Assembly: GCA_013331795.1 (NCBI GenBank)
Contig: DUFP01000029.1
Span: 1-59,175, forward strand
DNA length: 59,175 nt
Source of the DNA: Nanobdellota archaeon
Lineage (GTDB): Archaea > Nanobdellota > Nanobdellia > SCGC-AAA011-G17 > GW2011-AR17
Reading direction: 5' to 3'
The position numbers and the translations under genes are program-made. Of this stretch, positions 1,918 through 13,850 are shown one piece after another; position 1 is the stretch's first letter, and each line of letters begins with the position of its first letter. The notes under the pieces are model-generated. The model was not told where the DNA came from and ran no database searches. It saw only the letters and a program-made list of their open reading frames with translations.

Positions 1918-2526
1918 ATGGGAGATCCGAAAAAACAAAGAAAAAAATATAGTGGTCCTCAGCATCCATGGCGTCGAACTAGGATTGAGGAAGAAAAGAT
2001 TCTTGTTGAAGAATATGGATTACGAAACAAGAAAGACTTATGGAAAACTACTTCTAAATTAGGGCATTTTAAAAAACAAGCAAAATCATTAATCGCACGA
2101 CAAGGTGCACAAGCTGAACTTGAAAAAAAATTATTCTTAAACAAACTTCAAAGATTAGGCCTCATTGGAATGGATGCAGGTGTTGATGAAGTTTTGAGTT
2201 TGTCCGCAAAAGATCTTTTTGAAAGACGATTACAAACATTGCTCTATAGAAAAGGCTTTGCTCATTCCACATTACAAGCACGGCAATTTATTGTGCATGG
2301 ACATGTATTTATTGGTGCACAAAAAATGAATGTTCCCTCTTATCTTGTTCCTGCAGGTCAAGAACAACTTATTGTTTTTGATCCTAAGTCTGCTCTTGCA
2401 GATCCGGAACATCCTGAAAGAAAGGTTGTAGAAAAAGCACCAAAAAAGGATGAGAAATCTTCACGAAAGAAAGTTGATGAAGAAGAAGTTGTTGCAGAAA
2501 TTATTAATGAAGAGGTAACAAAATGA
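1918..2526 (+). CDS. rps4: 30S ribosomal protein S4 (uS4)
   Basis: This 202-residue protein is uS4, a primary 16S rRNA binder. The archaeal N-terminus ([17 protein letters not shown]) and an S4 RNA-binding domain around residues 100-160 ([28 protein letters not shown]) are clear. A charged Lys/Glu tail of about 40 residues follows the core. The stop overlaps the rps11 start as ATGA. Confidence 0.96.
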
Positions 2527-2951
2527 ATCCAAATCTTAGTCCAAGACCAAGTATGCAACAAGAAAGATTGAAATGGGGAGTTGCACATATTTATTCTTCG
2601 TATAACAATACTATTATTCATATTACAGACATTTCCGGAGCAGAAACTTTGTCTAAAGCTTCCGGGGGAATGGTTGTGAAAGCACACCGAATGGAGTCAT
2701 CTCCTACCGCAGCAATGGCAGCAGCAAAAATTGCAGCTGAAGGAGCAAAAGATAAAGGAGTTAATGCACTTCATATTCGCGTTCGCGCACCTGGTGGACA
2801 TAATGGACCAAGTAATACAGGGCCTGGAAGTCAAGCTGCTATTAGGGCATTGTCTCGTATGGGATTACGAATAGGAAACATTGAAGATGTTACTACGGTT
2901 CCTCATGATAAATGTAGAAAGAAAGGTGGAAAGCGAGGAAGAAGAGTTTAA
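2523..2951 (+). CDS. rps11: 30S ribosomal protein S11 (uS11)
   Basis: This 142-residue uS11 carries the highly conserved [19 protein letters not shown] strand, the [11 protein letters not shown] segment and the [23 protein letters not shown] signature, with the basic [13 protein letters not shown] tail typical of archaea. It lines the mRNA exit region of the small subunit platform. It overlaps rps4 by four bases and is followed one base later by rpoD. Confidence 0.97.
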
Positions 2952-2952
2952 G

Positions 2953-3735
2953 ATGGAAATTAAATTATTGTCTAAGGATAAAGCAAAAGTTCGTGTTCAT
3001 GTAAAGGGTACTACAGCTGCTGAGATGAATACTTATCGAAGAACAATTCTTGATAAACTTCCTGCTATGGCAATTGATACTGTTGAATTTTTAGAAAATT
3101 CTTCTGCACTCTATGATGAAATGCTTGCTCATCGATTAGGTCTTGTTGTTTTGAAAACAGATGTAGAATCTTATTTTATTCGAGAGAATTGTAAATGCAA
3201 AGGTGTTGGTTGTGCACGATGTACTTTAGATCTTACTTTAGATGTAGAAGGGCCATGCATGGTTTATGCTGAGCAATTAAAATCTAAAGATCCAGCAGTT
3301 ATTCCTGTGCATGGAAAAACACTCCTTGTCAAACTTTTAGCAAATCAAAAAGTGAAACTTATTGCTCACGCAATTTTATCTTCTGGGAATGAACATATTA
3401 AATTTTCTCCTGGAATTATGTATTATCAAGGTTATCCAAATATTAAAATTGCAGATGTGAAAAGCCCAGATGCAATTGCAGGAATTTGCCCTACAGGTGT
3501 TTTTAGTTCTGATCACAAGAAACTTGTTATTAAGAATAAAGAAGCATGTACTTTATGTATGGCTTGTGTTGATGCTTCCAAGGGAGAAGTAGAAGTAAAA
3601 GGAAGCGAAACAGAATTCATTGTTACTATAGAACCCTGGGGTCAATTAACAGCTACTGGGATGGTAGAAGGTCTTGTTGATGCACTTCATGAACAAATTG
3701 ATGCACTCAGTGAGGAGATTAAGAAACTGAAATAA
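2953..3735 (+). CDS. rpoD: DNA-directed RNA polymerase subunit D (Rpb3/Rpb5-like), Fe-S type
   Basis: This 260-residue alpha-like subunit starts assembly of the polymerase by pairing with RpoL. The dimerisation core begins KGTTAAEMNTYRRTILDKLPAMAIDTVEF. Residues about 78-90 hold a C-x-C-x4-C-x2-C cluster (CKCKGVGCARC). Domain 3 carries a ferredoxin-like group, ICPTG followed by CTLCMAC, matching the 4Fe-4S type seen in some archaeal RpoD proteins. The ATG at 2953 is chosen because an upstream in-frame extension would run back into rps11. tRNA-Leu follows after 6 bases. Confidence 0.94.
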   Translation: MEIKLLSKDKAKVRVHVKGTTAAEMNTYRRTILDKLPAMAIDTVEFLENSSALYDEMLAHRLGLVVLKTDVESYFIRENCKCKGVGCARCTLDLTLDVEGPCMVYAEQLKSKDPAVIPVHGKTLLVKLLANQKVKLIAHAILSSGNEHIKFSPGIMYYQGYPNIKIADVKSPDAIAGICPTGVFSSDHKKLVIKNKEACTLCMACVDASKGEVEVKGSETEFIVTIEPWGQLTATGMVEGLVDALHEQIDALSEEIKKLK

Positions 3736-3741
3736 TCCTAT

Positions 3742-3856
3742 GCGGGAGTGGCAGAGCCTGGTCAAATGCGCTAATTCATTTGTTTGTGCAAATGGAGCGT
3801 TTGCTTGAGGGGCTAGTCTCTTAGTGAGTGCGAGGGTTCAAATCCCTTCTCCCGCA
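3742..3856 (+). tRNA. tRNA-Leu(GAG) with a non-canonical 29/30 intron
   Basis: The 7-bp acceptor stem is 3742-3748 with 3849-3855, with discriminator A at 3856. A D-arm pairs 3751-3753 with 3767-3769. The T-arm is 3832-3836 with 3844-3848 around loop TTCAAAT. The variable arm (3818-3820 with 3826-3828) is long, as in class II tRNA. The unspliced transcript has no intact anticodon stem. Removing 3774-3802 joins CTA to GC and creates a perfect CTAGC/GCTAG stem around loop TTGAGGG, anticodon GAG (3807-3809). The mature length is 86 nt, class II, leucine. The gene sits inside the rpoD-rpl18e operon, 6 bases after rpoD and 14 before rpl18e, with no CCA encoded. Confidence 0.9.
3774..3802 (+). other. 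29-nt archaeal tRNA intron (bulge-helix-bulge)
   Basis: The intron is flanked by a good bulge-helix-bulge. The central 4-bp helix is 3768-3771 (GCGC) with 3797-3800 (GCGT). Bulge 1 is 3772-3774 (TAA) and bulge 2 is 3801-3803 (TTG). The inner helix is 8 bp (3775-3782 with 3789-3796) closed by a 6-nt loop. Cutting after the second base of each bulge gives exactly the intron that restores the anticodon stem. The outer exon helix is weak, so this may be a relaxed motif. The position, 29/30 on the 5' side of the anticodon stem, is not the usual 37/38. Confidence 0.85.
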
Positions 3857-3870
3857 GTACAAAGAAAAAA

Positions 3871-4212
3871 ATGAAAACAAATTTACATACACGGACATTG
3901 ATTAGCGAGCTTCAAAAAGCTGGAAAAACAACTCCTTTGTGGAAGAGAGTTGCAGAAGAGCTAGAAAGCTCTACGCGAAGAATGGTTGCAGTTAATCTTT
4001 CAAAAATTGACAAAGTTGTCAAAGCTGGAGAAATTGCTCTTGTTCCAGGGAAAGTTCTTTCTACTGGTTCTTTAAGCAAAAAAATTTCTATTGCAGCATT
4101 TTCCTATTCTGAAGCTGCACGAGAGAAAATTGCAAAAAATGGAGAAACATTATCTTTATCTGAATTATTGAAAAAAAATCCTCAAGGAAAAAAGGTTAGG
4201 TTAGTAAAATGA
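3871..4212 (+). CDS. rpl18e: 50S ribosomal protein L18e (eL18)
   Basis: This 113-residue eL18 shares a fold with bacterial L15. Recognisable blocks are the N-terminal LHTRTLISELQKAGKTTPLW, VNLSKIDKVVKAGEIALVPGKVLSTG, and the C-terminal NPQGKKVRLVK. It follows the tRNA-Leu directly and overlaps rpl13 by ATGA, so it is probably translated from the same polycistronic RNA that carries the tRNA. Processing of the tRNA would set the 5' end of this message segment. Confidence 0.94.
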   Translation: MKTNLHTRTLISELQKAGKTTPLWKRVAEELESSTRRMVAVNLSKIDKVVKAGEIALVPGKVLSTGSLSKKISIAAFSYSEAAREKIAKNGETLSLSELLKKNPQGKKVRLVK

Positions 4213-13742: not shown

Positions 13743-13850
13743 TGGGCCCAGTGAGATTTGAACTCGCGACCTCCGGCTGACTTCAGCCATCATCCAAAGT
13801 GAATGAAGGTCATATAAGACCGGCGCTCCACCAAGCTAAGCTATGGGCCC
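13743..13850 (-). tRNA. tRNA-Ile(UAU) with a 37/38 intron
   Basis: On the minus strand, GGGCCCA (13850-13844) pairs with TGGGCCC (13750-13744), with discriminator A at 13743. The D-arm (GCTT...GAGC) and T-arm (GCGAG/CTCAC around TTCAAAT, with one C-A mismatch) fold normally. The anticodon stem CCGGT/GCCGG forms only after removal of 34 nt (13779-13812). The loop is then CTTATAA, anticodon TAT (UAU), which reads the isoleucine codon AUA. The acceptor stem and general body resemble archaeal tRNA-Ile. The mature length is 74 nt. A TATA box lies 25 bases upstream, and no CCA is encoded. Confidence 0.85.
13779..13812 (-). other. 34-nt canonical-position tRNA intron
   Basis: Intron between positions 37 and 38. 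The expected bulge-helix-bulge is imperfect: the core CTTA/GAAG has three pairs and one A-G mismatch. Bulges are ATA-type at the 5' site and TC/A at the 3' site. The inner intron hairpin pairs nine positions with one U-U mismatch around an ACTTT loop. A37 and A38 flank the junction as expected. Confidence 0.75.

Follow-up and report, generated by a model that had tools for sequence, protein, structure and literature searches.

A tRNA-Leu(GAG) gene with an intron at 29/30 in a Woesearchaeales archaeon and its candidate alpha4-type splicing endonuclease

Does the sequence between rpoD and rpl18e at 3742–3856 of the window (the whole stretch of DNA analysed, 59,175 nt, contig DUFP01000029.1 of assembly GCA_013331795.1) encode a leucine tRNA that is spliced at a non-canonical position, and what kind of endonuclease would remove its intron? 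The source genome (G000; 89.7% complete, 41 contigs) was compared with the other members of its genus (G001–G006) and with further Woesearchaeales relatives (higher G numbers). The source organism is a member of the order Woesearchaeales, its named relatives being mostly Candidatus Woesearchaeota MAGs; the initial annotation, made from the letters alone, had guessed correctly at a DPANN host.

The tRNA-Leu(GAG) gene and its intron

Gene detection: The gene was absent from the ARAGORN output and from the whole-window Rfam scan; in narrower searches the unspliced gene was found with the Rfam tRNA model RF00005 (38.9 bits, cut-off 29 bits). In the generic Rfam alignment CTA was paired with the wrong TAG, the one in the variable arm, the anticodon stem was misplaced, and this alignment was replaced by a class-II tRNA-Leu model (R1) derived from seven tRNA-Leu(GAG) genes in the family that have no intron. 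R1 gave 85.1 bits (E 1.2e-17) and placed a 29-nt insert right after CUA, within the anticodon stem. Of the covariance-model fold proposed beforehand as a check, the lineage model thus agreed with the annotated structure and the generic one did not.

Table 1: Features of the tRNA-Leu(GAG) locus (positions of the window).
Feature	Coordinates	Strand	Basis or detail
tRNA-Leu(GAG) gene, class II, intron-bearing	3742–3856	+	Rfam RF00005, 38.9 bits; lineage model R1, 85.1 bits
5' exon: acceptor strand 3742–3748, D arm, anticodon stem bases 27–29 (CTA, 3771–3773)	3742–3773	+	sequence, splice search
29-nt intron at 29/30	3774–3802	+	splice search; empty site in two congeners
3' exon	3803–3856	+	variable arm, T arm, acceptor strand, discriminator A 3856
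Anticodon loop TTGAGGG	3805–3811	+	anticodon GAG 3807–3809
Anticodon stem, 3' strand GCTAG	3812–3816	+	in 3' exon
Core helix (4 bp), 5' strand GCGC	3768–3771	+	splice search, shuffle test
Core helix (4 bp), 3' strand GCGT	3797–3800	+	splice search, shuffle test
5' bulge TAA, predicted cut 3773/3774	3772–3774	+	splice search, congener comparison
3' bulge TTG, predicted cut 3802/3803	3801–3803	+	splice search; internal loop in minimum-energy fold
Inner helix 3775–3782/3789–3796 with loop, plus U.G pair	3775–3796	+	compensatory changes in congeners
rpoD (RNA polymerase subunit D), 6 nt upstream of tRNA-Leu	2950–3735	+	NF001988, 6.1e-77
rpl18e, 14 nt downstream of tRNA-Leu	3871–4212	+	NF003079, 2.5e-36

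Structure: The sequence was read as acceptor GCGGGAG/CTCCCGC, T arm GAGGG TTCAAAT CCCTT and discriminator A. No anticodon stem can be formed with the intron present; after removal of the 29 nt the stem CTAGC/GCTAG, the loop TTGAGGG and the anticodon GAG are obtained in a spliced tRNA of 86 nt. In an exhaustive search of all single deletions flanked by a bulge-helix-bulge (BHB) motif, the deletion of 3774–3802 was the top solution (59.0; runner-up 45.2), and the stem, the anticodon and the motif with its 4-bp core, 3-nt bulges and 8-bp inner helix were recovered as initially annotated, the inner helix being 8–9 bp long. When the intron was shuffled 200,000 times by dinucleotides, a full 4-bp core with at least 8 bp of inner helix came up 24 times, so that the motif is expected by chance at about 1e-4.

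The intron has the 4-bp core between two 3-nt bulges that carry the splice sites, its removal gives a full tRNA, and intronless orthologs exist, as is the case for archaeal BHB introns. The strict hBHBh' form is not reached: no contiguous outer-helix pairs were found beside the 3' bulge by the splice search. The fold contains a 2-by-4 internal loop at the 3' bulge and a 4-bp TCAA/TTGA outer helix offset by 2 and 4 nt; as modelled, the motif would be a relaxed HBh'/BHL-like form, which also lies within the wider BHB family. The minimum-energy fold of the spliced tRNA gave no cloverleaf and was counted neither for nor against. The analysis confirmed 3742–3856 as a real tRNA-Leu(GAG) gene with a 29-nt intron at 29/30. 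The intron is another case of an already known class, 29/30 standing among the published non-canonical positions (PMC4090602, PMC4033280, PMC8450103, PMC11291895). This tRNA-Leu is the only GAG gene found in the genome, and CTT plus CTC make up 149 of 326 leucine codons counted in the window; in the Woesearchaeales, a large archaeal group, essential tRNAs are overlooked by standard annotation.

Conservation of the intron and of its genomic context

Comparison within the genus: The Leu intron was observed at 29/30 in five of seven members (G000–G004); G005 and G006 have a clean empty site, and their 86-nt tRNAs align gap-free with the spliced tRNA of G000. The annotated position 29/30 was supported alike by the splice search, by the R1 insert and by these empty sites. 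Between G000 and G002, 85 of 86 exonic and 26 of 29 intronic nucleotides are identical. In G001 and G004 both sides of three intron helix pairs were changed (T-A to C-G twice, G-C to A-T); the comparison covered four species, and such double changes are expected for a structure retained by covariation. The intron of G003 is of other sequence and length and retains the fold, with one C-A mismatch in the core. The pair 30/40 across the splice junction is G30-C40 in the intron-bearing species and C30-G40 in the intronless ones.

Comparison within the order: The tRNA-Leu of the rpoD locus carries a 27-nt intron at 37/38 in G008 (same family) and, in other families, introns in the D arm (G029, G035) or at 30/31 (G022); introns of this tRNA have been gained and lost repeatedly. 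As a separate observation, the tRNA-Leu between rpoD and rpl18e has the anticodon AAG (A34) in six relatives from other families (L052, L053, L059, L060, L164, L177); A34 tRNAs are almost missing from archaea, and no PF00383 deaminase was found in G022 and G038.

Genomic context: The gene order is S13, S4, S11, rpoD, tRNA-Leu, L18e, L13, S9. By hand count, a tRNA-Leu lies no more than 250 nt downstream of rpoD in at least 35 of the 57 relatives in which rpoD was found; it stands directly 3' of rpoD in all seven genus members save G003, which has an ORF in between. The placement is therefore old within the order, and, 29/30 being a known site, both context and position are ordinary. The flanks noted initially are real (NF001988, NF003079); the oddity ascribed to them did not hold. 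The tRNA-Leu is likely processed from a shared ribosomal-protein transcript. By the account of Kromer and Arndt (1991), the S9 operon of Haloarcula is likewise reported to begin near a tRNA-Leu.

Two further observations were made at this locus. The ORF between rpoD and the intron-bearing tRNA-Leu of G003 (L036, ~2335–3015) encodes a LAGLIDADG protein (PF14528, 9e-9), which suggests a homing element near the tRNA-Leu site. RpoD itself (window 2950–3735) has a ferredoxin-like Cys cluster at about residues 177–209, with a weak match to the HgcB ferredoxin.

Splicing enzymes and the intron repertoire

EndA: The sole EndA gene found in G000 lies at C16:9849–10409 and encodes 187 aa with the N and C domains (PF02778 and PF01974); a second subunit was not found by searches with PF01974, PF02778 and the EndA protein itself. 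Among solved structures the best relative was 3iey_A (1.2e-36), which is the catalytic chain of the N. equitans enzyme; a plain sequence search with the G000 protein also reached the beta chain of that enzyme (2.1e-13). The M. jannaschii alpha4 enzyme (1a79) was aligned over residues 44–187 with one gap of one residue (6e-34); by sequence comparison with 1a79 no inserted CSL or ASL was seen close to the active site, and in 27 homologs of the order, all of which retain Tyr, His and Lys of the catalytic triad, the length is constant around the place of these loops. The enzyme thus shows the single gene, both domains and the catalytic triad of the alpha4 type; neither a second subunit nor the three-unit form of the (alpha-beta)2 and epsilon2 enzymes was found in G000 or order-wide. 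As far as profile and sequence searches and the 1a79 alignment indicate, G000 EndA is of alpha4-type architecture and has neither the specificity loop of Crenarchaeota nor that of ARMAN, which answers the earlier call to identify the subunit type.

Among 71 Woesearchaeales genomes at least 85% complete, one EndA was found in 67, none in four and two in none; two were found in one genome among 60 relatives, and that genome is 6% contaminated. The single-contig genomes G047 (829,411 bp) and G022 (736,702 bp) have one EndA each. No EndA was found in the assemblies of G001 and G003, though both have the Leu intron; G003 is rated 100% complete, yet consists of ~70 contigs. The initial annotation had deduced an endonuclease of broadened specificity; none of the known kinds was found. 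It was thus only partly right: its structure is correct, but no broad endonuclease of a known kind was found and the operon location is ordinary for the order.

RtcB: Two copies are present in G000 (C21:448–3249 and C12:16302–17324). In one of them, a frame of 1010 aa, the match is interrupted by a large internal gap, likewise in G002, G003 and G006; the gap is such as an intein would give.

Other non-canonical introns: At least eight tRNAs of G000, tRNA-Leu(GAG) included, were found by the splice search to have non-canonical introns: Arg(TCT), 28/29; Lys(TTT), 30/31 and 37/38; Ala(TGC) in the 16S–23S spacer of the rRNA operon (L026 1501–1608), T-loop intron 59/60, also kept in three further species (G002, G003, G005); Gly(TCC), D arm and 37/38; Gln(TTG), D arm; for Asn(GTT) and initiator Met(CAT), three putative introns each are the best explanation. 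For Gln, Gly, Tyr, Asn and initiator Met the boundaries are not unique. The repertoire varies within the genus: Arg(TCT) has 28/29 only in G000, 28/29 and 37/38 in G005 and 37/38 only in G006, and in Cys(GCA) a non-canonical intron is confined to G002. In G047 introns were found in Lys(CTT) (53/54) and Leu(CAA) (30/31); in G022, in Ser(TGA) and Leu(TAA) (30/31 and 37/38) and in Ala(GGC) (53/54). In several of the other non-canonical introns the outer helix is 0–2 bp or the inner helix 0–1 bp long.

Other unusual tRNAs: A tRNA-Ile with anticodon UAU and a 34-nt intron at 37/38 was found in the window (13743–13850, minus strand), also in G003, G005 and G006 and apparently in G047; a tRNA-UAU was reported in merely 2 of 167 archaeal genomes surveyed (PMC6000648). 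A further group of tRNAs combines a Ser-like body, with G73, a Ser-type D loop and a class II arm, with a Leu anticodon (UAA or CAA) and a 32–35-nt intron at 37/38, and has up to seven copies in G006 (L114, L127, L136–L138, L143; possibly L028, L115, L140–L142); odd decoding or tRNA-like elements are possible explanations.

Interpretation and comparison with known systems

The locus is best explained, with a probability of about 0.88, as a functional tRNA-Leu(GAG) with a BHB intron at 29/30 that is spliced by an alpha4-type EndA and RtcB. The precursor would presumably be released from a polycistronic ribosomal-protein transcript; intron and exon edges are predicted to fold into the 5' bulge, the covarying 4-bp core and, on the 3' side, a relaxed bulge or an internal loop; the single EndA would cut in both bulges, and RtcB would join the exons to the 86-nt tRNA with the stem CTAGC/GCTAG. 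The Leu intron would be one of many recently gained and lost across tRNAs of the order. Against this explanation stand the weak outer helix, the presence of the intron in G001 and G003 with no EndA in the assembly, and the C-A mismatch in the core of G003.

A degenerate or inserted pseudogene that stays unspliced is very improbable: standard finders did overlook the gene, but the identities to G002 (exonic versus intronic), the fit of all 86 exonic bases to tRNA-Leu, the genus-wide conservation with covariation, and the heavy use of codons for which no other GAG gene was found speak against decay. The motif might instead be strict enough for any alpha4 enzyme, its position being irrelevant and broadened specificity unneeded. 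Archaeal EndA recognises the motif whatever the mature tRNA domain (PMC8707768), the geometry of the core and of both bulges is perfect, and the inner helix is a long one; the outer helix missing beside the 3' bulge, the 2-by-4 internal loop, and the short or nearly absent helices of other introns in G000 and its relatives make this reading somewhat doubtful.

It is unlikely that a known broad-type enzyme (with a beta-like second subunit, or as an EndA that has a specificity loop) was overlooked through genome gaps or divergence. G000 is incomplete and fragmented, gaps matter, as the two intron-bearing genus members lacking any EndA indicate, and the best solved relative belongs to a two-subunit enzyme; yet two EndA genes were never found in the 71 more complete genomes, and the N. 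equitans beta subunit was within reach of a plain search with the G000 protein. Since G047 and G022, on single contigs, combine one EndA with non-canonical introns, incompleteness alone is not the cause of the missing subunit.

With splicing by the alpha4-type EndA as the preferred reading, the many non-canonical introns of the order point to two variants: its EndA would handle relaxed motifs with none of the known specificity loops, or it would be aided by a helper that sequence comparison does not reveal, a protein without detectable similarity being possible. According to reviews, alpha4 enzymes are strict and relaxed motifs are removed efficiently by two-subunit or epsilon2 types alone; one paper added homodimeric EndA to the types for BHL-like motifs. 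The relaxed introns of G000, G047 and G022 would imply that alpha4 EndA is not confined to strict motifs. We give even odds to the wider claim that in the Woesearchaeales a single-gene alpha4-type EndA without CSL or ASL excises relaxed and multiple non-canonical tRNA introns. If it is true, the published link of broad intron repertoires to two-subunit or loop-bearing enzymes breaks, and G000 would be a case from nature against the rule that the tRNA intron repertoire is set by the architecture of EndA, which outweighs the Leu intron itself. G047 and G022 allow a direct test of the rule, with a single small protein and a handful of precursor RNAs. In the papers searched there was no prior report of such a repertoire with an alpha4-type EndA; an earlier one for Woesearchaeales is possible.

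The non-canonical BHB introns of Thermoproteales, Nanoarchaeota, Thaumarchaeota and Atabeyarchaeia/Freyarchaeia share the motif with G000 (PMC4090602, PMC4033280, PMC8450103, PMC11291895), as they do multi-intron tRNAs and fast gain and loss; where the enzyme of those lineages is known, it is mostly a two-subunit or loop-bearing EndA, whereas only a single-gene, loop-free one was found in G000. ARMAN-2 epsilon2 and crenarchaeal (alpha-beta)2 EndA also occur in genomes rich in non-canonical introns (PMC12397907, PMC6379350), but they are three-unit or two-gene enzymes with an 11–18-residue specificity loop, neither of which was seen in G000. Nanoarchaeon Nst1 (PMC3655853), a nanoarchaeal relative, resembles G000 in having an alpha subunit with no beta gene found; unlike G000, it has two intron-bearing tRNAs only (Ile, Tyr), at positions common to N. 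equitans. M. jannaschii alpha4 EndA (1a79) resembles the G000 enzyme in build, being likewise encoded by a single gene, ~180 aa long, with N and C domains and the catalytic Tyr-His-Lys; its type is described as confined to strict canonical motifs, whereas the introns of G000 are often not of this kind.
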